A stretch of 64,000 bases of DNA from an uncultured Pelagibacteraceae bacterium (GTDB lineage: Bacteria; Pseudomonadota; Alphaproteobacteria; Pelagibacterales; Pelagibacteraceae): positions 1 through 64,000 of the forward strand of contig CACBMB010000003.1 of NCBI GenBank assembly GCA_902540275.1. Reading direction: 5' to 3'. Within the stretch, counting starts at the first letter, position 1. Each line of letters opens with the position of its first letter. Both the position numbers and the translations under genes were made by a program. Below the pieces are notes generated by a model. It made no database searches. It was not told the origin of the DNA and worked only from the letters and a program-made list of their open reading frames with translations. Positions 49,153 through 62,570 of this stretch are shown piece after piece.

Positions 49153-50061
49153 ATGGATAAAAATTTTTTCAAACAGGTCAGAATTTTAGATGGTGGTATG
49201 GGTCAAGAATTGCTTGCTAGAGGATTGAACCCGAAGGGCACTTTATGGAGTGCAAAAGCACTACTTGAGGAAAAAACACATTCTTTAATTGAAAGTGTGC
49301 ATGAGAATTTTGTTAAAGCCGGTGCAGAAGTAATAATTACTAATACATTTGCAACTCGACGAATTAGACTTAAAGAAAACAATTTAGAGGATAAATTTGA
49401 AATCTTAAATAAGAATGCAGGTAAAATAGCTAAAAAAATTAAAAATAAATATCCTCAAATTTTAATTGCGGGTGGCTTACCTCCTCAAAATACAACATAT
49501 TCTTGTGACACAAGAGATGAGATTGAAATATTTAACAATTTCAAAGATCAAGCAAAAATTTTAGATCCATATGTTGATTTTTTTTATCTTGATGTTCTGA
49601 GTAGTATTAGGGAAATCTCTATTGCAGTTAATTCAATTAAAGAATTTAATAAACCATTTTTAATTGGTGCTCATATTTCTGAGGGAGTAACTTTACCGAG
49701 TGGTGAAAAATTATCAGAAATTACTAAAAAGATTGAAATAAAAAATCTTCTTGGATTAATATTAGCATGTGTTTCTCCAGAAAATTATGAAAAAAATATT
49801 AATGAAATTAAATCTATTGGATTTCCATTTGGTTTTAAAATTAATGCTTTTGAAAAAACTAAAATCACAGGTGGATATAAAAAGAATTATAGAAAAAGTA
49901 AATCTGGAAATCCTAATGAATTTTTAGGTAAAAAAGATGACTTAACCCCAGCAGTTTTAAAAAATTTAGCAAAAAAATTTATTGATGATGGAGCGACAAT
50001 AATTGGTGGATGTTGTGAAACAAATCCATCACATATCAAAGCTTTTTCAGAACTTAAATAG
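49153..50061 (+). CDS. homocysteine S-methyltransferase family enzyme
   Basis: A 302-residue TIM-barrel methyltransferase. ILDGGMGQELLARGLNP opens it, VIITNTFATRR follows, a first zinc-site cysteine is in ACVSPEN (~residue 200), and the paired zinc cysteines are in IGGCCETNPSHIKAF at the end. It transfers a methyl group to homocysteine from a donor such as S-methylmethionine, betaine or dimethylsulfoniopropionate. It starts nine bases after the exporter gene, so no riboswitch separates them. Its stop overlaps the convergent transporter gene by eight bases (TTAAATAG). Confidence 0.82.
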   Translation: MDKNFFKQVRILDGGMGQELLARGLNPKGTLWSAKALLEEKTHSLIESVHENFVKAGAEVIITNTFATRRIRLKENNLEDKFEILNKNAGKIAKKIKNKYPQILIAGGLPPQNTTYSCDTRDEIEIFNNFKDQAKILDPYVDFFYLDVLSSIREISIAVNSIKEFNKPFLIGAHISEGVTLPSGEKLSEITKKIEIKNLLGLILACVSPENYEKNINEIKSIGFPFGFKINAFEKTKITGGYKKNYRKSKSGNPNEFLGKKDDLTPAVLKNLAKKFIDDGATIIGGCCETNPSHIKAFSELK

Positions 50062-50941
50062 TTTTTTGATAGTCTGCTTTTCTTACAAAATAAATTCCCA
50101 CACACACTGCAATAAGAGAAATAAGCACTTTAAAAGTAATTAATTCTTTCAAAAAGATATAGCTTAAAATAGTTCCAAAAATTGGTATCAAATAAGATAC
50201 TTGCGATTGAAAAATTAACCCGTTGTTGACTAAAATTCTAAATCTTAATAACCACGCAATACCAGTCGAAACTAATCCAAGATAGATTACTGAAATAGTT
50301 GAGTCTAACCTAGGTGTTAATTCCCAAGGTTGCTCAATAAAACTTACTAAAGGAATTAGTATAATAGTTGCCCAAATTAAAATTGATCCTGTTACATTTT
50401 CATTTTTTTTCTTACTAATTTTTAGAGTAAGAACTCCTCCAATTACATAACAAGTAGAACCTAAAAGAATTAATAATGCTGATATAAAATTATTTTCATC
50501 AATTAGTAGATTATCAGAAAATAAAAACACAATCCCAGAAAATCCAATCATTATTCCAATGGTTTTGACGAAATTAAATTTTTCATTTTTTGTATAAAAG
50601 TGCGCAAGAACTGTAGAACTTAATGGAGTAGTAGACATCAATATTGCTGCTAAATTACTTTGAACAGATTTTACTCCATAGGCTATTAAAAAAAATGGAG
50701 CGACTAAGTTTATAAAACCTATCATAGCAAACCAATGCCAATCTTTAGAAAATGCTTCAATTTTAATATTTTTAAAATAACACAGTAGTAAAACTGGAAT
50801 TGCTCCAAAAAAAACTCTCAGGAAAGCAATAGTTACAGGTCCAAATGAGTAGGTTGCGATTTTAATATTAAAAAAAGCAGAAGCCCATATCAATGCTAAT
50901 ATAGTTAACAATATATAGTCTAACAGTTTTGGTTGTCTCAT
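50054..50941 (-). CDS. EamA-family (DMT) transporter
   Basis: A 295-residue membrane protein with ten helices in two EamA repeats. The first starts at LALIWASAFFNIKIATYSFGPVTIAFLRV, the second near LLILLGSTCYVIGGVLTLK. It is an exporter or importer of a small metabolite of unknown identity. Its ATG overlaps the end of the YbaK-like gene by four bases, so the two are co-translated. Confidence 0.85.
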   Translation of the reverse strand: MRQPKLLDYILLTILALIWASAFFNIKIATYSFGPVTIAFLRVFFGAIPVLLLCYFKNIKIEAFSKDWHWFAMIGFINLVAPFFLIAYGVKSVQSNLAAILMSTTPLSSTVLAHFYTKNEKFNFVKTIGIMIGFSGIVFLFSDNLLIDENNFISALLILLGSTCYVIGGVLTLKISKKKNENVTGSILIWATIILIPLVSFIEQPWELTPRLDSTISVIYLGLVSTGIAWLLRFRILVNNGLIFQSQVSYLIPIFGTILSYIFLKELITFKVLISLIAVCVGIYFVRKADYQKTI

Positions 50942-51417
50942 TCAGAAATCTCTTTAATTAAACCTTGAGTAATTTTTTGTAGGTTTGAATAATCAATTTT
51001 AAAAACACAATTTGGATGACCAGCCGCTGCATATAAATCAGCAAATCTTTCTAATGATTTATCAATAAAAATATTAACCTTATTTAAATGGCCCACTGGT
51101 GAAACACCGCCAATGGTAAAACCTGTGATATCTTTAACCTCATCAGCAGAAGCCATTGAAGCATCTTTAATATTTAAGGTTTTTTTAATCTTATTCAATG
51201 AAGCTTTTTTATCTCCAGCTATTAAACATAAAGTGAATGTATTTTCAGTTTTAAAAAGTAAGCTTTTTACTATCGCTCCAACTTCACATTTTAAAGAGGA
51301 AGCTGCCTCCAAGGCTGTTCTGGCAGAAGTATCAAGTAAAATAACATTAAAGTTTGGGTCAAAATTTTTTAAAATTTTCTCAACCCTTTTTACTGGCTCT
51401 TTATCTAATGTAGACAT
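50938..51417 (-). CDS. YbaK/ProX-type aminoacyl-tRNA deacylase
   Basis: A 159-residue single-domain protein of the YbaK/ProX editing family, which hydrolyses mischarged tRNA (for example Cys-tRNA-Pro or Ala-tRNA-Pro). ALEAASSLKCEVGAIVKSLLF contains the conserved Lys, SLNKIKKTLNI follows, and TIGGVSPVGHL (~residue 105) is the family's loop around the active site. Which tRNA it edits is unknown. It diverges from glnA. Confidence 0.82.
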   Translation of the reverse strand: MSTLDKEPVKRVEKILKNFDPNFNVILLDTSARTALEAASSLKCEVGAIVKSLLFKTENTFTLCLIAGDKKASLNKIKKTLNIKDASMASADEVKDITGFTIGGVSPVGHLNKVNIFIDKSLERFADLYAAAGHPNCVFKIDYSNLQKITQGLIKEISE

Positions 51418-51556
51418 AATTCAACTTTAAATTGTTGGTTATTTATATTGTAAAATACACACTTATGTAAAAATTGCATAGGTGTTATTAATTAAAAGAG
51501 CATTCTTTATCAGTCTTTATTTGGTATCACAAGGCCCAAATTATATAGGAGAGATT

Positions 51557-52963
51557 ATGAGTGCTAAAGATGTTTTAAAATTTATTAAAGATAAAGAAGC
51601 AGAATTTGTTGATTTAAGATTTACAGATCCAAGAGGTAAATTGCAACATTTAACAATGGATTGCACTGCAGTTGATGAAGGTATGTTAAACGATGGTGTA
51701 TTCTTTGATGGATCTTCGATTGCTGGCTGGAAAGCTATAAATGAATCTGACATGATTTTAAAACCAGATTTATCAAGATTTTTTTTAGACCCTTTCACTT
51801 CTCATAATACAGTTGTTTTATTTTGTGACATTTTAGATGCAATTAAAAAAACACCTTACGAAAGAGATCCAAGAGGGGTTGCAAAAAAAGCTGAAGAATA
51901 TTTAAAAAAGTCTGGAATTGGTGATAAAGCATTCTTTGGTCCAGAACCTGAATTTTTTGTTTTTGATGATGTAAGAATAAAAAATGATATGAACGAATGT
52001 GGTTTTAAACTTGATAGTAAAGAAGGTCCTTATAACTCAGGAAAAGAATACGATAACGGTAATATGGGACATAGACCTGGAATTAAAGGTGGTTATTTCC
52101 CAGTGCCTCCTGTTGACAGTGAACAAGATATGAGAGGTGAATATTTAAAAAATTTAAAAGAAGTTGGAATTAAAGTTGAAAAACACCACCATGAAGTTGC
52201 ACCAAGTCAGCATGAACTAGGAATGTATTTTGGAACATTGGTTCAGCAAGCAGATAACGTTCAGTTATATAAATATGTTGTGCAAATGGTTACACACTCG
52301 TTTGGAAAAACAGCAACATTTATGCCAAAGCCAGTAGCAGGAGACAATGGCTCAGGCATGCATACACATCAATCTATTTGGAAAGGTGATACTCCAGTTT
52401 TTTCTGGTGATGCGTATGCTGGACTATCTGAGACAGCACTACATTACATTGGTGGTATTCTAAAACATGCTAAAGCAATCAATGCATTCGCTAACGCTAC
52501 TACTAATAGTTATAAAAGATTAATTCCTGGATTTGAAGCTCCAGTTCTTTTAGCTTACTCTGCAAGAAACAGGTCTGCTTCTTGTAGAATTCCAATAACT
52601 TTGAGTAAAAAAGGAGCTAGATGTGAAATTAGATTTCCAGATGCATCAGGAAATCCCTATTTAACATTTGCAGCTATGTTAATGGCTGGAATTGATGGGA
52701 TTAAAAATAAAATACATCCAGGTGATTCTTTTGATAAAGATTTGTATGATTTACCTCCTGAAGAAGTTAAATCTATCCCAACTGTATGTGGATCTTTAAG
52801 AGAAGCAATGGAGAGTTTAGATAAGGATAGAGATTTTTTAACTCAAGGTGGTGTATTTACTGATGATCAAATTGATGCTTATATAGCTCTTAAGTTTGAA
52901 GAAATTCATAAATTCGAACACGCACCTCATCCGGTAGAGTTTGAGATGTATTATAGCTGCTAG
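51557..52963 (+). CDS. glnA: glutamine synthetase type I
   Basis: A 468-residue GS I-beta enzyme making glutamine from glutamate, ammonium and ATP. FDGSSIAGW (near residue 51) is the Asp-50 loop, PEPEFFVFD (~residue 131) is a metal-site segment, and MPKPVAGDNGSGMHTHQS (~residue 256) is the ATP and glutamate site. Tyr in KDLYDLPPEE is the adenylylation site, so activity can be switched off covalently. The frame is open 25 codons upstream, but the ATG with TAGGAGAG before it is the true start. The leader of about 140 bases from ybaK holds its promoter; no clear riboswitch was seen. Confidence 0.95.
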   Translation: MSAKDVLKFIKDKEAEFVDLRFTDPRGKLQHLTMDCTAVDEGMLNDGVFFDGSSIAGWKAINESDMILKPDLSRFFLDPFTSHNTVVLFCDILDAIKKTPYERDPRGVAKKAEEYLKKSGIGDKAFFGPEPEFFVFDDVRIKNDMNECGFKLDSKEGPYNSGKEYDNGNMGHRPGIKGGYFPVPPVDSEQDMRGEYLKNLKEVGIKVEKHHHEVAPSQHELGMYFGTLVQQADNVQLYKYVVQMVTHSFGKTATFMPKPVAGDNGSGMHTHQSIWKGDTPVFSGDAYAGLSETALHYIGGILKHAKAINAFANATTNSYKRLIPGFEAPVLLAYSARNRSASCRIPITLSKKGARCEIRFPDASGNPYLTFAAMLMAGIDGIKNKIHPGDSFDKDLYDLPPEEVKSIPTVCGSLREAMESLDKDRDFLTQGGVFTDDQIDAYIALKFEEIHKFEHAPHPVEFEMYYSC

Positions 52964-52974
52964 TAATATTTTAA

Positions 52975-53145
52975 TTACTGCTTAGTTGTAGCTATAGTGT
53001 CTTTGTTAACGCCTTTTTTAACTACGTAATCCTGAGTACCGTTAGCACCAGTCTCTACTTCTTTACGTAGATCTTTAAAAAAAGATTTTTCTTTTAAAGA
53101 ATCTTTAAGACCTTTAACAAGATTTTTAAATTCAAATTTATTCAT
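52975..53145 (-). CDS. 56-residue basic, helical small protein of unknown function
   Basis: An ATG-started frame of 56 codons on the reverse strand, not previously listed because of its size. It starts MNKFEFKNLVKGLKDSLKEK, is rich in Lys and ends IATTKQ. The first half should form an amphipathic helix, and the second half is more polar (TGANGTQDYVVKKG). No signal peptide is seen. It lies between glnA and sufA, convergent with glnA and separated from its stop by eleven bases. I do not recognise it. Coding-like codon use and a clean start support it as a real gene. Confidence 0.55.
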   Translation of the reverse strand: MNKFEFKNLVKGLKDSLKEKSFFKDLRKEVETGANGTQDYVVKKGVNKDTIATTKQ

Positions 53146-53211
53146 GATTCATTTATACACTAGATATGCATTATACGCAATACTGCTATGCAACTTGTGG
53201 GATACTAGAAA

Positions 53212-53547
53212 TTAATCAATTTTAAATGACTCTCCACAGCCACAACGCTCAGTTTCGTTGGGATTATTGAATACAAAAGTAGAGGAAAAATCCTCTTTTT
53301 TATAATCCATTTCAGTTCCTAATAAATACATGACAGCTGCAGAATCGATAAAAACTTTTACGCCTTTTTCCTCGATAATTTCATCATTTGGATTTAATTC
53401 TTTAGAGTATTCCATGACATAAGACATGCCAGCACATCCACCAGATTTTACAGAAACTCTAACGCCTAATGCATTTTTTTCGGCGCTAGACATTATTTCT
53501 TTAATTCTATTTGCTGCATTGTCACTTAATTTTATTATTGGGTTCAT
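53212..53547 (-). CDS. sufA: HesB/IscA-type iron-sulfur carrier
   Basis: A 111-residue A-type carrier that receives clusters from the SUF scaffold and delivers them to apoproteins. The three conserved cysteines are in SGGCAGMSY (Cys38) and ERCGCGESF near the C terminus. It is last in the leftward SUF operon and its start abuts the end of sufT (shared base), so the operon position favours SufA. ErpA or IscA are equally possible by sequence. Confidence 0.88.
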   Translation of the reverse strand: MNPIIKLSDNAANRIKEIMSSAEKNALGVRVSVKSGGCAGMSYVMEYSKELNPNDEIIEEKGVKVFIDSAAVMYLLGTEMDYKKEDFSSTFVFNNPNETERCGCGESFKID

Positions 53548-53843
53548 TATAAATTCAACTCCAGTTTTGCAGCATCAGACATCATATCTTTTGTCCATGG
53601 TGGATCCCAAACTAATTCAAGGTCAACCTCATCTATCCCCTCTACTTGCATTGCACCCTCTTTAACTTCTTTAGGTAAACTTTCTGCAACGGGACAATTA
53701 GGTGTTGTAAGTGTCATTTTTATTTCAGCTTTTTTACCTTTAACTTGTATATCATAGATTAACCCAAGTTCATATATATTCACAGGTAACTCAGGGTCAT
53801 AAATTTTTCTTATTTCTTCTATTATTTTATTTTTAACTTCCAT
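53547..53843 (-). CDS. sufT: SufT (DUF59/MIP18-like) Fe-S maturation factor
   Basis: A 98-residue DUF59 protein. IYDPELPVNIYELGLIYDIQ (near residue 14) and LTTPNCPVAESLP (with the conserved Cys at ~50) are the family core, and WDPPWTKDMMS closes it. It helps insert Fe-S clusters in SUF systems. It lies between sufU and sufA in the operon, five bases after sufU. Confidence 0.88.
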   Translation of the reverse strand: MEVKNKIIEEIRKIYDPELPVNIYELGLIYDIQVKGKKAEIKMTLTTPNCPVAESLPKEVKEGAMQVEGIDEVDLELVWDPPWTKDMMSDAAKLELNL

Positions 53844-53848
53844 AATAA

Positions 53849-54313
53849 TTAATCTTCTGTACTAACTTGTTTACCATCGTTTTCCATTGCTGACACTAAA
53901 GTGTGCCATGATAAAGTAGCACATTTTACTCTCATAGGGTATTGTTTAACTCCTGAAAGACACATTAATTTTGTTTTATCATCCTCTTTTAAGATATTAT
54001 TCTTTAGTTCTGGATTTTCTTTTATCATTCCTAAAAAATCTTCTATAATTTCTTTAGCTTCGTTATCACTTTTGCCTTTAATTAAATCTGTCATTATTGA
54101 AGCAGATGCCATAGATATTGCACATCCACTTCCTTCAAAAGATATATCTTCAACTTTTCTTTGCTCATTTAATTTTAAATATACATGAACGTTATCACCA
54201 CATAATGGATTATTTCCTTTAGCATCTTTATTAAAATTTTCTGTCTTCCTCAAGTTTCTAGGATTTTTTCCGTGTTCTAAAATTATTTCTTGATAAAGTT
54301 CTTTTAAATTCAT
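53849..54313 (-). CDS. sufU: SufU/IscU-like scaffold or sulfur-transfer protein
   Basis: A 154-residue IscU-fold protein. The three conserved cysteines are in NPLCGDNVHV (~residue 38), GSGCAISMASASIM (~62), and MRVKCATLSWHTL (near residue 130), with an added Cys in LMCLSGV. The stretch between the second and third cysteines is longer than in IscU, which fits SufU, the zinc-dependent sulfur acceptor of SufS. It overlaps sufS by four bases. Confidence 0.88.
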   Translation of the reverse strand: MNLKELYQEIILEHGKNPRNLRKTENFNKDAKGNNPLCGDNVHVYLKLNEQRKVEDISFEGSGCAISMASASIMTDLIKGKSDNEAKEIIEDFLGMIKENPELKNNILKEDDKTKLMCLSGVKQYPMRVKCATLSWHTLVSAMENDGKQVSTED

Positions 54314-55530
54314 TTTAAATCAAAAATTTTTTTACAATTATTAATTCCTTCATTCAATTTATCTAAATCATCTTTGGTATTATATACTCCTAATGATGCT
54401 CTTGCACTTGCAGGAATACCTAATTTATCATGAAGAATTTGACAGCAATGATGACCTGCTCTGATTGCAACTCCTGTTTCATCTAAAATGGTTGCAATAT
54501 CATGAGGGTGGACACCTTCAATAGTAAAAGATAATACACCACCTCTTTCTTTGGGATTTCCAATTAATTTTACAGAATTATTTTTTTGTAAAATTTCTTG
54601 ACCATATTCAATTAGTTCTTTTTCATGTTTTATTATATTTTCAATTCCAATACTTTCGAGAAATTTTATTGACTGATCAAAGGCAATCACTTGTGCCGTA
54701 GCCATTGTTCCAGCTTCATATTTATTGGGAAGTTCACCATATGTAATTCTATCTTTTTTAACTTCATTAATCATACCTCCTCCACCTTGATAAGGTGGTA
54801 GTTGTTCTAACCATTTTTTCTTTCCATAAAGAACACCTAATCCTGTTGGACCATACATTTTATGACAAGAAATTGCGTAAAAATCACAATCTAAATCCTG
54901 CATATCTAATTTTAGATGTGGTCCTCCTTGACAACCATCAACCACAACTACAATTCCTTTTGAGTGCGCAAGTTGTGTAATTTCTTTGATAGGTAAAACT
55001 GAGCCAGTAACATTGGATAAATGAGTTATTGCAATTACTTTAGTTCTATCTGTTATTTCTTTTTCTATATTTTCAATTGGAATATCACCATCCTCATTAA
55101 TTTCTGCAAATTTTATTTTAATATTCTTAGATTTTCTCAAAAAGTGCCAAGGAACATAATTTGAATGATGTTCTAATTCTGTAATTAAAACTTCATCATT
55201 TGGTTCTAAAATTGTTTGACCTAAAGTATTAGCTACTAAATTTAGAGCTTCTGTCGCTCCTTTAGTAAAAACAATCTCGTTCTTATCTTTAGCATTAATA
55301 TATTTTTGAACAGAAACCCTTGTATTTTCATACAAATTAGTTGCTGCAACTGCCAAATAATGAAGGCTTCTACCTACATTTGAAAATTGCTTTGAATAAA
55401 AATCATTTATTCTATCCAAAACAACCTTGGGTTTTTGTGAAGAGTTTGCACTATCCAAGTAAACTAAGTCATTGTTATGAATTTTTTCGTCAAATATAGG
55501 AAATTCTTTTTTAATATTATCTATATTCAT
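54310..55530 (-). CDS. sufS: cysteine desulfurase
   Basis: A 406-residue PLP enzyme that strips sulfur from cysteine for cluster assembly. The PLP lysine is in AISCHKMYGPTGLGVLYG (~residue 226), and the persulfide cysteine lies in IRAGHHCCQIL near residue 362. NSSQKPKVV and the N-terminal YLDSANSS are typical of SufS. It overlaps sufU and sufD at its ends, so the operon is tightly coupled. Confidence 0.94.
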   Translation of the reverse strand: MNIDNIKKEFPIFDEKIHNNDLVYLDSANSSQKPKVVLDRINDFYSKQFSNVGRSLHYLAVAATNLYENTRVSVQKYINAKDKNEIVFTKGATEALNLVANTLGQTILEPNDEVLITELEHHSNYVPWHFLRKSKNIKIKFAEINEDGDIPIENIEKEITDRTKVIAITHLSNVTGSVLPIKEITQLAHSKGIVVVVDGCQGGPHLKLDMQDLDCDFYAISCHKMYGPTGLGVLYGKKKWLEQLPPYQGGGGMINEVKKDRITYGELPNKYEAGTMATAQVIAFDQSIKFLESIGIENIIKHEKELIEYGQEILQKNNSVKLIGNPKERGGVLSFTIEGVHPHDIATILDETGVAIRAGHHCCQILHDKLGIPASARASLGVYNTKDDLDKLNEGINNCKKIFDLK

Positions 55531-56774
55531 TCTTTTAATCCAATCATGTTTTTAACCAGGTTTTTAACTTCAGAGTCTGTTATCTTGTCAATTACATCGA
55601 CTATAAATCCATTTATTAAAAGTTCTTTAGATTGCTTATAATTAAGTCCTCTTGACATTAAATAAAATATTGAATTTTCATCTAAACTTCCTGACGCTGA
55701 TCCATGAGAACATTTTACATCATCAGCATAAATTTCTAATTCTGGTTTAGCATTAAATTCTGATGACTCATCTAATAAAATAGCTTTACTTAATTGATAG
55801 CCATCAGTTTTTTGTGCTTCAGAATTTACAAAAATTTTTCCTTGATATACAGCCTTAGAATCTTTTCCAAGAACACTTTTAATCAATTGATAACTTTTTG
55901 TATTTTCAACAAGATGATTTATCGATGTTCTAATTTCATGGTGTTGATCGTTCATTAATGTGATAATTCCATTAACGAATGCAGAGGAATAACTACCATT
56001 TAAGTTACAATTAATTTCATTTTTAAAAAAACTAGATCCAGAGGATAAAATAAAGTTTTCAGAAACACTATTTTCATCCTGATTAATATTATTGAAAGAA
56101 TATCCAATATTTTTATTATGATCATTATCAATTTTGTAATTTTTCAAAATAGAATTTTTTTTCAATTCAAAGTCATAAAAGATATTAATAAAATTTTTTT
56201 CTGATTGATGATTATTGTAATCTATTAATCTTAAAGAGCTATTTTGATCTAGTTCAAATTTTAATCTAATATTGATACTTTTCGATTTAATTTTATTATT
56301 TGTTGTATGGTAAATTACTAAAGGTTTTTTAAGATGATAATCTTTTTTAATTGAAATCTTATAAATCCTACTCGAAAAAGCATTATTTAAATCAACTAAT
56401 GAATTGAAATTTTTAATTTCACTTTCAGTCTCTGAAGTTTCATTTAATTTTATCTTTTCTGCATCTTCATAACTAAAATCAATTTTTTCAACTCTTCCAT
56501 TTATAAAAACAATTTTATTATGTTCTAATTCGTCTATAAAAACTGATGTATCAATTTTATTGGATGATGAATAATCACTAAAAAAACTTAACTCTCCAAT
56601 ATTTTTATGAATAATTTGATTAATGTCAGAGAATTTCCAATTTTCAAGTTTTTTGTTTGGAAAACCATTTAAGATGAATTTATCTAAGAACTTTTTTTTT
56701 AAATTAACATCAGTTTCAGATAAACCTGAAGTTTTAAATGTTTTTTCAAAATCAATTTTTATCTGTTCATTCAT
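55527..56774 (-). CDS. sufD: SUF scaffold component SufD
   Basis: A 415-residue beta-helix protein that forms the SufBC2D scaffold. The C-terminal region is well conserved: VLGKDSKAVYQGKIFVNSEAQKTDGYQ, then PELEIYADDVKCSHGSASGSLDENSIFYLMSRG. The histidine in CSHG is implicated in cluster building. The N-terminal third is divergent and lysine/asparagine-rich, as in other AT-rich genomes. It starts one base before the end of sufC. Confidence 0.9.
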   Translation of the reverse strand: MNEQIKIDFEKTFKTSGLSETDVNLKKKFLDKFILNGFPNKKLENWKFSDINQIIHKNIGELSFFSDYSSSNKIDTSVFIDELEHNKIVFINGRVEKIDFSYEDAEKIKLNETSETESEIKNFNSLVDLNNAFSSRIYKISIKKDYHLKKPLVIYHTTNNKIKSKSINIRLKFELDQNSSLRLIDYNNHQSEKNFINIFYDFELKKNSILKNYKIDNDHNKNIGYSFNNINQDENSVSENFILSSGSSFFKNEINCNLNGSYSSAFVNGIITLMNDQHHEIRTSINHLVENTKSYQLIKSVLGKDSKAVYQGKIFVNSEAQKTDGYQLSKAILLDESSEFNAKPELEIYADDVKCSHGSASGSLDENSIFYLMSRGLNYKQSKELLINGFIVDVIDKITDSEVKNLVKNMIGLKE

Positions 56775-57509
56775 TTAATTAAAACTTTCATAACCCTTTT
56801 TTTCTAACTCTAGTGCTAATTCTGGGCCACCAGATTTAATTATTTTACCGTTCATTAAAACATGTACAAAATCTGGCTTGATATAATCTAACAATCTTTG
56901 ATAATGAGTAATAATTAAAAATGAATTTTCTTTATTTCTAAGAGTATTTACTCCATCAGCAACAACCTTTAATGCATCTATATCTAAACCTGAATCTGTC
57001 TCATCTAAAATTGATAACTTTGGTGCTAACATTGACATTTGTAGAATTTCATTTTTCTTTTTTTCACCACCAGAAAAACCAACATTCAACTGTCTACTTA
57101 ATTTCTCTTCATCAAATTTTAATTCTTTTGCTTTTTCTTTTACAAGTTTTAAAAATTCAATTGTATCAAGCTCTTTTTCACCTCTTGCTTTTCTGATTGC
57201 ATTCAAAGAAGTTTTTAAAAAAATATTAGTATTTACCCCTGGAATTTCCAATGGATATTGAAAAGCTAAAAAAATACCTTTGTGAGCTCTTTCTTCAGTT
57301 TCTAAATCAAACAAGTTTTTATTTTCAAATAATATGTCTCCTGTTACTTCGTAACCTTTTTTTCCAGATAAAATATTAGATAGTGTGCTTTTTCCAGATC
57401 CATTAGGACCCATTATTGCGTGAACTTCTCCAGGTTTTATATCCAAAGAAAAGCCTTTTAATATTGACTTATTTTCAATGTTTGCGCTCAGATTGTTTAT
57501 TTTAAGCAT
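56775..57509 (-). CDS. sufC: SUF ATPase SufC
   Basis: A 244-residue ABC-type ATPase driving assembly on SufB-SufD. Walker A is GPNGSGKST (residues ~35-43), the signature is NVGFSGGEKKKNEILQM (~147), Walker B is LSILDETDSGLD (~170), and the H-loop is ITHYQRLLDYI (~201). All are intact. SufC ATPases characteristically carry the GFSGGEKK signature seen here. Its start overlaps the sufB stop by one base. Confidence 0.95.
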   Translation of the reverse strand: MLKINNLSANIENKSILKGFSLDIKPGEVHAIMGPNGSGKSTLSNILSGKKGYEVTGDILFENKNLFDLETEERAHKGIFLAFQYPLEIPGVNTNIFLKTSLNAIRKARGEKELDTIEFLKLVKEKAKELKFDEEKLSRQLNVGFSGGEKKKNEILQMSMLAPKLSILDETDSGLDIDALKVVADGVNTLRNKENSFLIITHYQRLLDYIKPDFVHVLMNGKIIKSGGPELALELEKKGYESFN

Positions 57510-58951
57510 TAACCGACGCTCCCCTCTAAACTAATACCTACAAGTTTTTGAGCTTCTACCGCAAACTCCATTGGTAATTGCTGTAATACTTCTTTGCAGA
57601 AACCATTCACAATTAGACCAACAGCTTCTTCTGAACTTAAACCTCTTTGTTGACAATAATGGAGTTGTTCCTCACTTATTTTTGATGTTGTTGCTTCATG
57701 AGCAATATTCGAGTCAAAATTTTTATTTTTAATGTAAGGAACAGTGTGAGCACCACATTTATTCCCCATCAAAAGAGAGTCACACTGAGTATAATTACTT
57801 GAATTTTTTGCTTTAGAATTGATATCAACAAGACCTCTATATGTCATATCTGAAAATCCAGCACTGATACCTTTGGAAATAATTTTACTTTTTGTATTTT
57901 TTCCTAAATGGATCATTTTAGTTCCTGTATCAGCTTTTTGATGATTATTTGTAATTGCTATTGAATAAAACTCTCCAATAGAATTGTCACCTTTTAAAAT
58001 ACAACTTGGATATTTCCAAGTTATAGCCGAACCAGTTTCAACTTGTGTCCAAGAAATTTTAGAATTTTTTCCCTTACATAATCCTCTTTTTGTAACAAAG
58101 TTATAAATACCTCCTTTGCCATTTTCATCACCAGGATACCAGTTTTGAACTGTAGAATATTTGATCTCAGCATCATCAAGTGCTATCAATTCAACATTAG
58201 CGGCATGTAATTGATTTTCATCTCTCATAGGGGCTGTACACCCTTCAAGGTAACTTACATAACTACCCTTATCAGCTATTATGAGTGTTCTTTCAAATTG
58301 ACCTGTTTCAGAAGCATTAATTCTGAAATAAGTTGACAATTCCATCGGACATCTAACTCCCTCAGGAATATAAACAAATGAACCGTCTGTAAAAACAGCT
58401 GAATTAAGTGTTGCAAAAAAATGATCTGTAGTAGGTATTACGGTTCCAAGATATTTTTTTACTAAATCTCCATGTTTTTGAATAGCTTCTGACATTGAAC
58501 AGAAAATAATTCCTTGTTTTGTCAATTCTTCTTTAAATGTTGTTGCCACAGAAACTGAATCGAACACTGCATCAACAGCAATACCATTTAATCTTGCTTG
58601 TTCCTGTAAAGGAATTCCAAGTTTTTTATAAGTTTCTAATAATTTAGGATCAAGCTCATCAAGACTTTTAGGTTTGTCCTTCATGCTTTTAGGTGCTGAA
58701 TAGTAATATAAATCTTGATAGTCAATTTTAGGATATTTTGGTTTCTGCCAGTTTGGTTCTTTTAATTCTTTGAACCTTTTAAATGCATTTAGTCTAAATT
58801 CTAACATCCATTCAGGCTCTTTTTTAATATCAGATATAAATTTAATTACATCCTCATTCAAACCTTTTGGCGCTTTGATATTTTCAATATCAGTTGAAAA
58901 CCCATATTTATAATCTTTTAACTTTTCTATATCTTTCTCTCTAGTATCCAT
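57509..58951 (-). CDS. sufB: SUF scaffold component SufB
   Basis: About 480 residues, the main scaffold subunit on which [4Fe-4S] clusters form. The C-terminal half holds [40 protein letters not shown], and the cysteine used in sulfur transfer is in EGCTAPM (near residue 240). I chose the ATG with GAAGAA upstream. An in-frame GTG six codons earlier inside the iscR end is an alternative. It follows iscR with almost no gap. Confidence 0.93.
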
Positions 58952-58952
58952 T

Positions 58953-59378
58953 TTAAATTCTTCTTTCACTATTATCTTTAACTAAATCATACAAACTTTT
59001 TTCCTCAAAAAAATTATTAATATGATTTTCAAGTTCATCCCAAAGATTATGTGTTAAACATTTTGTAGATTTACCGTTACATCCTTTTTTTGACTCTTTT
59101 TTACATTGAACAGTTTTTACTTTTTCATCTACTGCATCAAAAATATTCGTTAACTTAATTTCTTTAGCATTTTTATTTAAAACGTAACCACCCTGAATTC
59201 CTCTTACACTTTGAACAATTTCTTTTTTTCTTAATTTAGAAAAAATTTGTTCTAAATAATCTAGTGAAATTCCTTGCCTTAAAGATATATCTCTCAAAGA
59301 AACTGGATTGACATTGTCAAATCTAGCTAAATCAGCTAAGGCCATTACCGCATATCTTCCTTTAGATGTAAGTTTCAT
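58953..59378 (-). CDS. iscR: IscR-like Rrf2-family Fe-S-sensing repressor
   Basis: A 141-residue regulator. [18 protein letters not shown] begins the winged helix, and [24 protein letters not shown] is the DNA-reading helix. Cluster cysteines are Cys92, Cys100 and Cys107 with a possible His110 ligand; the spacing (seven and six residues) is longer than in E. coli IscR (five and five). The gene heads the suf operon. A near-perfect IscR site overlaps its own promoter, so it most likely represses the operon when [2Fe-2S]-loaded. Confidence 0.9.
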
Positions 59379-59399
59379 AAATCCGCTATTTACAAGGGG

Positions 59400-59431
59400 T
59401 ATATATAAACCTGACTAAAATAGTCAAGTAT
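59400..59431 (-). promoter_or_regulatory. iscR-suf promoter with overlapping IscR type-1 box
   Basis: On the reverse strand TTGACT (59427-59422) and TATATA (59405-59400) form -35 and -10 elements 16 bases apart. The same place on the plus strand contains CCTGACTAAAATAGTCAAG followed by TAT (59410-59431), fitting the E. coli IscR type-1 consensus (SYYGACT R WWW Y AGTCRRS TAT) at every position from S onward; only the first ATA half-match is off. The site covers the -35, as expected for repression. Confidence 0.8.
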
Positions 59432-59512
59432 ATAGGTTTAAAAAAAACTATCAATTTGTCACGTACTTGTGCTATGTCTACTTTTTTTTTGAGAATAATT
59501 ATCATTTACAAG

Positions 59513-60169
59513 ATGGATAATAAAATTTTAGAAATATTCATTCCAGGACCTGCGGGCAGACTAGAGGCAAAATATTTTAAAAGTAAAAAAAATACTGCAC
59601 CAATTGCTTTAGTATTACAACCACATCCTCAGTACGGTGGCACAATGAATAATAAAGTTGTTGTGGAAACATTTCGTACTTTTATGGAAAATGATTTTTC
59701 AGTGTGCAGAGTAAATTTTAGAGGTGTCGGTAAAAGTGATGGAGAATTTGATAATGGTCAAGGTGAATTAGCGGACGCTGCTGCTGCACTAGACTGGTTG
59801 GAGAGAGAAAATTTTGATAACTCTCAATGTTGGGTTACAGGATTTTCTTTTGGGTCTTTGATAGCAATGCAGTTACTTATGAGAAGACCTGAAATTAATA
59901 GATTTATAGCTATTTCTCCTCAACCTAATGTTTATGATTTTTCATTTCTATCACCATGTCCAACCTCTGGATTAATGGTGTACGGAAAAAAAGATGAATT
60001 GGTGCCAGTTGATCATATTAAAGATCTAGAAAAAAGATTAAGTTCTCAAAAAGGAATAAAAGTAGATTTTCAATCTGTGCCAGAGGCAAATCATTTTTTT
60101 TCCAAAAATGAAAATGACTTAACTAAATATCTCAATAAATATATCAAAAAAGAAACTGCTTTATATTAA
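59513..60169 (+). CDS. alpha/beta hydrolase
   Basis: About 218 residues of alpha/beta-hydrolase fold of the small CC-type (COG2945-like). HPHPQYGGTMNNKVV near residue 35 is the oxyanion region, VNFRGVGKSDGEFDNGQGE follows, and the nucleophile elbow is GFSFGS (~residue 114). A late acid in YGKKDELVPVDH and His in EANHFF complete a likely catalytic triad. The open frame extends 19 codons upstream, but the ATG after AAG gives the family start. Substrate is unknown. It diverges from iscR and shares TTAA with the convergent anmK. Confidence 0.8.
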   Translation: MDNKILEIFIPGPAGRLEAKYFKSKKNTAPIALVLQPHPQYGGTMNNKVVVETFRTFMENDFSVCRVNFRGVGKSDGEFDNGQGELADAAAALDWLERENFDNSQCWVTGFSFGSLIAMQLLMRRPEINRFIAISPQPNVYDFSFLSPCPTSGLMVYGKKDELVPVDHIKDLEKRLSSQKGIKVDFQSVPEANHFFSKNENDLTKYLNKYIKKETALY

Positions 60170-61293
60170 AAATTATTTACAATAGTTCCACCAGAAATGG
60201 GTTCATTGCATCCAGTTGTTGCAGGATATGAAATAGGTAACTTTAAAAAAGATCTGATAGCGAGATAGGCAAATGCTTGAGATTCTACAAAATCACCATC
60301 AATACCATAATCGTCGATAGACTGTATAACTAAATCTTTTGCTAACTCATTTTTAATTCTTTGAACTAATGTAGTATTTTTTCTTCCACCACCACAAAGT
60401 AAAATTTTCGATATTTTATATTTTGTTTTTAACAAAAAATTATGGAGTTCTGTAGTAATTATTTTACTCGAAAAATCTGTTAACGTTGATGCTCCATCTT
60501 CCAAACTTAAACCTCTTACAAAATTTAAATCAAAATCTTTTGTGTCAAATGAAAATATATTTTTATTGACTCTATTATCAAAAATATCAAGAGCCTGATT
60601 TAAAATTAATTTATTTATTTTACCTAATTTTGCAATTTTTCCGTCTTTATCAAACTTATCATTTGTTTTGTTTCTTATCCACTCATCTATTAAACAATTT
60701 CCAGGTCCCAAATCTTTACTTTTTAAACTGTTTTTACGATGCTTGCTTATTACAGTAACATTTGCAATACCACCTATATTTAAAATACAAACAGGCAATT
60801 CAATTTTTTTTTTATTTATAATCAACTTGTGGAATATTGGAGTTAATGGAGCCCCTTCACCACCATTTTTAATATCATTCTGCCTAAAATCATAAATTAT
60901 AGTTTTTTTAGTTAATTGAGACAAAAGATTGCCGTCTCCTAGTTGTCTTGAAACTTTCTCTGAGGGATTATGATATACAGTCTGACCATGAAAACCAATA
61001 AAATCTATTTTTTTATCTATCGTTTCTAAAATTTGATTAACAATTTTTGCATGAAAAATTGTAATTTCTCTTTCAAGTTCATTAATTTCACTTTTATTGG
61101 TATTGAGATCGTTAGATTTTAAAATTTTATCTCTTAAAAAATGAAGATTTTCATAGATTTTTTGATCATATTTAAAATATTTATTAGTAACTTCATGAAA
61201 TCGATCAATCCCATCTGAATCAATAATTGAAGCGTCTACTCCATCTCCAGAAGTACCACTCATCAAGCCTAATGCTGTATATAACTTTCCCAT
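60166..61293 (-). CDS. anmK: anhydro-N-acetylmuramic acid kinase
   Basis: A 375-residue sugar kinase of the ASKHA fold that opens and phosphorylates 1,6-anhydroMurNAc in peptidoglycan recycling. LMSGTSGDGVDASIIDSDG (residues 11-29) is the ATP-binding signature. GFHGQTVYHNP follows (~residue 98), then FNIGG-like LNIGGIANVT (~171), DLGPGNCLIDEW, and CGGGRKNTTL near the end. Length and motifs match AnmK. It diverges from tyrS. Confidence 0.93.
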   Translation of the reverse strand: MGKLYTALGLMSGTSGDGVDASIIDSDGIDRFHEVTNKYFKYDQKIYENLHFLRDKILKSNDLNTNKSEINELEREITIFHAKIVNQILETIDKKIDFIGFHGQTVYHNPSEKVSRQLGDGNLLSQLTKKTIIYDFRQNDIKNGGEGAPLTPIFHKLIINKKKIELPVCILNIGGIANVTVISKHRKNSLKSKDLGPGNCLIDEWIRNKTNDKFDKDGKIAKLGKINKLILNQALDIFDNRVNKNIFSFDTKDFDLNFVRGLSLEDGASTLTDFSSKIITTELHNFLLKTKYKISKILLCGGGRKNTTLVQRIKNELAKDLVIQSIDDYGIDGDFVESQAFAYLAIRSFLKLPISYPATTGCNEPISGGTIVNNF

Positions 61294-61340
61294 TCTTATT
61301 TTTTTTTAATAAAATTTGTATATTGTATAATTATTAGCTT

Positions 61341-62570
61341 ATGAACAAATTTTTAAAAGAATTTAAAGATAGAGGCTATTTCTATCAGTGTACCAGCGAA
61401 AAAGAATTATCTGATTTGCTGAATAATAAAAAAATAAAAGGTTATATAGGTTTTGATTGTACGGCTGAAAGTCTTCATGTGGGAAGTTTGCTCCAAATAA
61501 TGTGTTTAAGACTACTTCAAAAACATGGTCATCGGCCTATTGTCTTGTTAGGTGGAGGAACTACTAGAATTGGTGATCCATCAGGTAAAGATAAAACAAG
61601 AAAAATTTTAAATGAGAAAGAAATTGAAAAAAATATTAAGAGTATAGAAAAAATCTTAAAAAAATTTCTTATTTCAGATAATTCAAAAACTAAACCTATT
61701 TTTGTTAATAATTATTCATGGCTAAAAAAATTAAATTATATATCTTTTTTAAGAGATATTGGAAAACATTTTACAATTAATAAGATGCTAACTTTTGAAA
61801 GTGTTAAAACTAGATTAGATAGAGAGCAGTCTCTAAGTTATATGGAATTCAATTATATGATTTTACAGGCATACGATTTTTTGGAATTAAACAAAAAAGA
61901 AAATTGTTCTTTACAAATTGGTGGTTCTGATCAATGGGGTAATATAGTTAATGGCACAGAACTTATAAAAAGATACTCAAGTAAGCAAGTTTATGGTTTA
62001 ACTACTCCTTTAATTACATTGGCATCAGGAGCTAAAATGGGAAAAACTGAGTCAGGAGCTATTTGGTTAGATGAAAAACTATTATCTGCTTATGATTATT
62101 GGCAATTCTGGAGAAATGTAGACGACAGAGATGTTATTAAATTTTTAAAAATGTTTACAGATTTAGATGTTGAACAAATAAATAAAATAATAAATGAGGA
62201 TATTAATCAACTTAAAATTAAGTTAGCTAATGAAACAACTTCTATGCTTCATGGTGAAAAGGCTTCTCGTAACGCAGAGCAAGCTGCGAAAGAAGTTTTT
62301 TCTGGAAAATCATTAGGGTCTAATTTGCCATCAATTAAGATCAATAAAAAAAATTTTAGTAAAAATAATGATATAATTGAACTTGTCATTTTATCTAAGT
62401 TAGAAAAATCTAAAAGTGAAGTAAGAAGATTAATTAAAGGAAATGCAATTAAATTAAATGATGAAATAATATCTGATGAAAAATTAATTATAAGTGATAA
62501 GTTTTTTCAAAAAGATTATTTAAAACTTTCTATAGGAAAAAAAAGACATATTAAAATCGAATTTAATTAA
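61341..62570 (+). CDS. tyrS: tyrosyl-tRNA synthetase
   Basis: A 409-residue class I synthetase charging tRNA-Tyr. FDCTAESLHVGSLLQ (~residue 38) carries the HIGH-type motif, and YDFLELNKKENCSLQIGGSDQWGNI is the tyrosine pocket. The KMSKS-type motif is KMGKTESGA (~residue 233), with the S4 RNA-binding domain in the last 60 residues (SKLEKSKSEVRRLIKGNAIKLN). It shares an eight-base palindromic stop overlap (TTAATTAA) with the next, convergent gene. Confidence 0.95.
   Translation: MNKFLKEFKDRGYFYQCTSEKELSDLLNNKKIKGYIGFDCTAESLHVGSLLQIMCLRLLQKHGHRPIVLLGGGTTRIGDPSGKDKTRKILNEKEIEKNIKSIEKILKKFLISDNSKTKPIFVNNYSWLKKLNYISFLRDIGKHFTINKMLTFESVKTRLDREQSLSYMEFNYMILQAYDFLELNKKENCSLQIGGSDQWGNIVNGTELIKRYSSKQVYGLTTPLITLASGAKMGKTESGAIWLDEKLLSAYDYWQFWRNVDDRDVIKFLKMFTDLDVEQINKIINEDINQLKIKLANETTSMLHGEKASRNAEQAAKEVFSGKSLGSNLPSIKINKKNFSKNNDIIELVILSKLEKSKSEVRRLIKGNAIKLNDEIISDEKLIISDKFFQKDYLKLSIGKKRHIKIEFN

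Follow-up and report, generated by a model that had tools for sequence, protein, structure and literature searches.

We propose that, in the SAR11 bacterium from which this DNA comes, IscR carrying its cluster (holo-IscR) acts at one type-1 operator to repress the suf operon that its own gene heads, and so forms a negative feedback loop; we put the probability of this reading at roughly 0.87. When clusters are plentiful, IscR would hold a [2Fe-2S] cluster on three cysteines and one histidine, and the holo-protein would bind the type-1 box and cover the −35 element of the iscR-suf promoter, with the result that RNA polymerase would be excluded. When iron or clusters are scarce, the protein would lose its cluster and no longer fit the unequal CC and TT half-sites, so that the whole iscR-suf operon would be derepressed. 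The operator in question is a predicted IscR type-1 site at positions 59407–59431 (minus strand) of the window, by which we mean the whole 64-kb stretch of DNA that was analysed, and it was recognised by its consensus match, its uniqueness and its conservation.

The type-1 box and the iscR-suf promoter

The earlier note had described an E. coli-like type-1 box with a nearly full match to the consensus, and this was borne out: the E. coli IscR type-1 consensus ATASYYGACTRWWWYAGTCRRSTAT, as printed in the available text of PMC6599224, is identical to the sequence at 59407–59431 at 24 of 25 positions. Read in the sense of iscR the box is ATACTTGACTATTTTAGTCAGGTTT; it starts 53 bp and ends 28 bases upstream of the iscR ATG, with the TT half-site distal and the CC half-site proximal to the gene. 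At a threshold of three mismatches it was the single type-1 match within the window, and 100 shuffles of the window gave a mean of 0.01 matches (one match in 1 of the 100). The whole assembly (1,203,901 bases in 19 contigs) likewise contained this one place at the same threshold (reversed-pattern control, 0), and the search for further genomic copies that the note had proposed thus found none at up to three mismatches. The same scan applied to E. coli K-12 iscR returned two sites, with one and three mismatches; the SAR11 site, with one, therefore equals the best site of E. coli. Judged from its sequence, the box is genuine, well conserved and functional-looking; such boxes are known from E. 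coli and are common among SAR11 relatives.

The box heads an operon of eight genes on the minus strand (iscR-sufB-sufC-sufD-sufS-sufU-SUF_assoc-sufA, 59378 to 53212). The first gene, iscR (58953–59378), encodes an Rrf2-family protein with the motif C-x7-C-x6-C-x2-H (PF02082, 126.8 bits against a cut-off of 30) and is followed by sufB (57509–58969; PRK11814, 893.9 bits, over the cut-off), whose listed start codon is a GTG and whose likelier one is the in-frame ATG at 58951. Then come sufC, encoding an ATPase (56775–57509; PF00005) and named from its place and the Pfam match only; sufD (55527–56774; SUFBD core, PF01458); the cysteine desulfurase gene sufS (54310–55530; TIGR01979, 548 bits, over the cut-off); a gene for a SufU-type protein (53849–54313; TIGR01994, 158.1 bits, over the cut-off); and one for a SUF-associated DUF59/PaaD-like protein (53547–53843; TIGR02945, 143.7 bits, cut-off 143.4). 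The last gene (53212–53547) encodes a SufA/HesB-type carrier that scored 127.3 bits with TIGR00049, over the cut-off, and 132.6 bits with the SufA model TIGR01997, below the cut-off of 136.2. An alpha/beta hydrolase gene (59516–60169, plus strand; PF00561 and PF12146 over their cut-offs) is transcribed divergently; it adjoins iscR/suf in both SAR11 families, and anmK and tyrS, which lie past it and were named by eye, are apparently common to both as well. From the numbering of loci only, SAR11_0737 is presumably its counterpart in HTCC1062. That locus is absent from the main text of PMC2864753, and the gene content of the operon resembles SAR11_0738–0745 in the available text of the same paper.

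The note had also placed the box over the iscR-suf promoter, containing its −35 element, and our reading of the sequence and of its conserved columns agrees, the promoter being a predicted one. The putative −35 element TTGACT (59422–59427, minus strand) lies inside the box and is separated by a 16-bp spacer from the putative −10 element TATATA (59400–59405, minus strand), which would place the start of the iscR transcript near 59393. The type-1 box therefore overlaps the predicted promoter of an Fe-S assembly operon, and the interval given earlier, 59400–59431, resolves into the 25-bp core at 59407–59431 plus this probable −10 element. The top pair in the promoter scan was a different one, TTGATA/TATACT (59454–59427), which matched at 10 of 12 positions. 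If that pair were the operon promoter, IscR would still bind, but the box would lie over the −10 element and the transcript start instead of the −35 element. Such an arrangement seems unlikely, as the scan found two pairs against a shuffle mean of 1.0 and therefore no real excess, and TTGATA/TATACT shows weaker column conservation than TTGAC and TATA[TA]A, which rank with the best-conserved columns when the window is aligned with 103 relatives. Promoters aligned on the box in other Alphaproteobacteria point the same way: 38 of 40 families have a C directly after TTGA, and at the fitting distance there is a recurrent TA..T element (T in 30, A in 32 and T in 31 of 40), although TTGA itself was required when this set was selected (42 of 60 families at up to six mismatches, 40 of which entered the column counts). 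We preferred TTGACT/TATATA because TTGAC and TATA[TA]A are conserved in the relatives and recur across these 40 alphaproteobacterial promoters.

The inverted repeat could in principle act as an RNA hairpin (a terminator or attenuator) rather than as a site for a protein, and a scan did report a stem of nine pairs and a T-rich tail at 59429–59409, against a shuffle mean of 0.0. A palindromic operator, however, yields such a stem by itself, and the consensus match together with the retained TT/CC asymmetry favours a protein over a hairpin; moreover, the stem would fall outside the transcript if the promoter preferred here is used. No Rfam match was found in 50000–62000, and we consider the hairpin explanation highly improbable.

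The IscR protein and its DNA contacts

The iscR gene (58953–59378) was the sole Rrf2-family gene found in the assembly, and the closest named IscR loci are those of uncultured Pelagibacteraceae (SAR11), with 94% identity. The best NCBIfam model was that of IscR (TIGR02010) with 175.4 bits, below the cut-off of 207.55, which is a threshold set by curators and not a biochemical feature; four other alphaproteobacterial IscRs, three of them trimmed to the aligned 134 amino acids, all fell short too (158.0–192.0), and E. coli IscR passed (220.2). We named the protein IscR because its ligands, Glu43, the operon and the operator all fit.

The longer cysteine spacing that had been noted, x7-x6 against x5-x5 in E. 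coli, held throughout, as C-x7-C-x6-C-x2-H was present at 111 of 111 loci (a count in which the window's own locus appears twice, as L001 and L002). Cys92, Cys98, Cys104 and His107, in E. coli numbering, were kept at all 104 Pelagibacteraceae loci, as were Gln35, Glu43, Gln44 and Arg59; Tyr41 was found at 98, with Phe at the other six. Residue 40, which lies in the recognition helix, was Asp at 91 of these loci, Leu at 7 and Val at 6 and was Ser at none of them, whereas all six sister-family loci examined, and 51 of the 60 other families, have Ser there. At residue 62, in the wing, Gln replaced Gly at 88 of the 104. In the available text of PMC5411485, the rule for type-1 sites is a CC half-site paired with a TT half-site, Glu43 serving to exclude apo-IscR; Ser40 of E. 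coli IscR contacts type-2 DNA, and the turn between the first two cysteines is proposed to move the recognition helix. The SAR11 box shows the CC/TT asymmetry of this rule, and in SAR11 IscR the turn between the first two cysteines is two residues longer. Among the type-2 DNA contacts, the window's IscR has kept Tyr41, Glu43, Gln44 and Arg59, and Ser40 has become Asp.

A search of the assembly with the type-2 pattern at up to three mismatches returned two places (reversed control, 0) and no match outside open reading frames (ORFs). Both places were dropped as candidate sites because they lie inside long ORFs. The replacement of Ser40, together with type-2-like matches inside ORFs only, suggests that type-2 control may have been given up. 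One may go further and suppose, tentatively and with some doubt, that IscR once governed many genes through two motifs and has been reduced in Pelagibacteraceae to an autorepressor with one operator. The observations behind this idea are a type-1 box that is nearly unchanged, the replacement of Ser40 and usually of Gly62, one type-1 site with no type-2 match outside ORFs, and a Fur box that shares the intergenic region.

Conservation in SAR11 and across Alphaproteobacteria

An iscR match was found in 43 of 61 genomes (our own and 60 relatives). The box stood at the head of the operon with up to three mismatches in 42 of these 43 and with four mismatches in the remaining one (G025); one genome (G026) had a second, weaker type-1 place, and among the 18 genomes without an iscR match one (G028) had a type-1 match of three mismatches. 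Among genomes of good quality, 2 of 19 were without an iscR match, and G143, a complete genome from another genus of Pelagibacteraceae, had neither an iscR match nor a type-1 box.

Conservation was followed at 110 distinct loci chosen by similarity to the window's IscR (including the best 80 of 559), all of which therefore have iscR by choice; removal of six sister-family loci left 104 Pelagibacteraceae loci, L001 being omitted as the same place as L002. Within 260 bp of iscR, the best site at these 104 loci had 0, 1, 2, 3 or 4 mismatches in 1, 48, 46, 8 and 1 cases, respectively, counts that are not independent since many of the SAR11 loci compared are closely related. None of 520 resamples came below six mismatches, the controls for this test and for that of the 60 families below being first-order Markov resamples and not exact shuffles. 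When the window was aligned with 103 relatives, the column content was 1.72 bits for the box, 1.35 and 0.99 for its flanks and 1.64 for the start of the neighbouring coding sequence.

All 19 sister-family genomes that have iscR place the box about 740 bp ahead of that gene, and seven regions from this family carried it with one to three mismatches. As it stands there at the head of the operon and at a distance from iscR, the box tracks the operon head and not iscR. In the sister-family region examined gene by gene (L279:2515–4378, genome G043), cysE opens the operon, between the box and iscR. Pelagibacteraceae have no cysE at the corresponding place and retain both the operator and the divergent hydrolase.

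The earlier note had considered the conservation notable on the grounds that Alphaproteobacteria often use other iron boxes, and this part of it did not stand. A type-1 match at up to three mismatches was found in 55 of 289 alphaproteobacterial genomes (15 with the reversed pattern), and for at least 28 of the 55, three of them SAR11, a match lay within 1 kb upstream of an iscR-like gene on the same contig, as paired by eye among the matches listed. One iscR region was then taken from each of 60 families; these were picked by hand, nearly always as the first listed (the second for f121, with at least f54 and f142 skipped), after the counts from the 289 genomes were known and without using them. 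Within 1.3 kb upstream of iscR, a site was present in 25 of the 60 at up to four mismatches and in 43 at up to six, against 0 and 7, respectively, of 600 resamples. The best sites of the remaining 17 families had seven to nine mismatches, with CTTGAC still present in four. The C-x7-C-x6-C spacing occurred in 52 of the 60. Both features are therefore common, and the argument from rarity fails. Other iron boxes are tied to particular groups, for example the Iron-Rhodo-box of Rhodobacteraceae in the available text of PMC4618611. Since a type-1-like operator is found in most of the families sampled, it is probably ancestral in Alphaproteobacteria, with the group-specific boxes as later departures. 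Type-1-like boxes being common in this class, the SAR11 box is, as far as sequence comparison goes, largely ordinary.

A neighbouring Fur box, the iron response and known systems

The intergenic region also holds a candidate Fur box, TGAGAATAATTATCA (59490–59504, no strand assigned), which has no mismatch to TGANAATNATTNTCA, the sequence that we take to be the 7-1-7 Fur box pattern. It lies 11 bp before the ATG of the divergent hydrolase and about 97–111 bp upstream of the putative iscR start near 59393. The assembly has two perfect 7-1-7 places and 48 at up to one mismatch (reversed control, 14), and the 19-bp Fur consensus had no match in the window at up to three mismatches. As chance alone would give 1.62 matches per window at up to one mismatch, it is conservation that carries the claim: 103 of the 104 Pelagibacteraceae loci have a box of up to two mismatches within 260 bp of iscR, compared with 33 of 520 resamples. 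The box starts between −122 and −155 across loci, and at 66 of the 104 it has one mismatch. At up to three mismatches it was not found in the sister family or at L011 (best, four).

Two near-perfect Fur-like boxes stand side by side at L172:1867–1897, 51 and 35 bp before a gene for a periplasmic binding protein, which would appear to resemble the iron-limitation marker SfuC. The other perfect 7-1-7 box (L170:1854–1868; C1:36853–36867 of our own assembly) lies within gataatgataatcattctca, in a region without an Rfam match; about 75 bp beyond it are a Cys-rich frame of about 58 amino acids with CxxC motifs (found by eye), possibly a small iron-responsive protein, and then a DUF2061 small membrane protein. 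In the available text of PMC4771312, SAR11 iron transporters are reported to be preceded by 7-1-7 boxes, and neither suf nor iscR occurs as a word in that text; a strict search of HTCC1062 found no classical Fur box, according to the available text of PMC3090418. The L172 copies and PMC4771312 support the reading of 59490–59504 as a SAR11 Fur box. It could supply part of the iron response of suf, or it may be the hydrolase's own operator.

A stronger version of this idea would make Fur, acting through 59490–59504, the main iron regulator of suf and leave IscR only to fine-tune it. The near-universal box at the Pelagibacteraceae loci, its place as one of two perfect copies in the assembly, the boxes before the SfuC-like protein and the three FUR-family proteins that the assembly encodes all speak for it. 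However, the box is far from the putative iscR start for simple occlusion and close to the hydrolase ATG, and the IscR box persists in the sister family and at L011, where no Fur box was found at up to three mismatches. We therefore regard a leading role for Fur as very unlikely and retain autorepression by holo-IscR. The points that weigh against autorepression are the preference of the scan for TTGATA/TATACT, the shortfall with TIGR02010, the Ser40 to Asp change, the Fur box that shares the intergenic region, the low similarity to a type II motif described for the Caulobacter isc site, the 2 of 19 good-quality genomes without an iscR match, and G143, in which no type-1 box was found either.

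The available text of PMC2864753, which counts SAR11 among the most abundant marine bacterial groups, reports that iron limitation raised transcripts of SAR11_0738–0745 1.76- to 2.44-fold, with P = 0.062 for the regulator SAR11_0738 (Table 1). This rise fits autorepression by holo-IscR. A matching rise in protein was not seen in the same study, which implies later control too. The word iscR is absent from that paper, though the suf operon is iron-responsive there, and the type-1 box offers a direct, testable mechanism for the response. The Ser40 change beside a nearly unchanged operator provides a natural test of how IscR discriminates type-1 from type-2 sites, and a Fur box beside the IscR operator, if real, would link the demand for Fe-S clusters to the supply of iron. 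Our literature search found no paper naming the SAR11 type-1 site; Rodionov et al. 2006, reportedly the principal comparative work on the iron regulons of Alphaproteobacteria, lay outside that search and may already have predicted it. To a known kind of site, this analysis adds the replaced Ser40, the lone type-1 operator and the neighbouring Fur box.

Compared with E. coli, the operator sequence is alike (one mismatch in SAR11, one and three in E. coli), TTGAC sits at the same place in the SAR11 box as in the second E. coli site, and the Cys3His ligands and Glu43 are also present in SAR11 IscR. The systems differ in that E. coli has two boxes, isc genes in the operon, x5-x5 spacing and Ser40, whereas SAR11 has one box, suf genes, x7-x6 spacing and Asp; and, in contrast to E. 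coli, the SAR11 assembly is without a type-2 match at up to three mismatches outside ORFs. Caulobacter crescentus, as described in the available text of PMC11475020, is similar in arrangement: IscR represses a single isc-suf operon headed by iscR in iron-replete cells, with a peak over the −35 element, an iron-dependent repression that is predicted for SAR11, and its ligands (Cys95, Cys105, Cys112 and His115) also have a longer spacing. Its spacing is x9-x6, however, its regulon has two motifs and an estimated 302 genes, and its isc site is described as closer to type II, with low similarity to that motif. In Rhodobacter sphaeroides, according to the available text of PMC4618611, IscR is likewise encoded by the first gene of an isc-suf operon and is a cluster-dependent repressor, the role predicted here for the SAR11 protein, but it has a single Cys and a different box, the 19-bp Iron-Rhodo-box.
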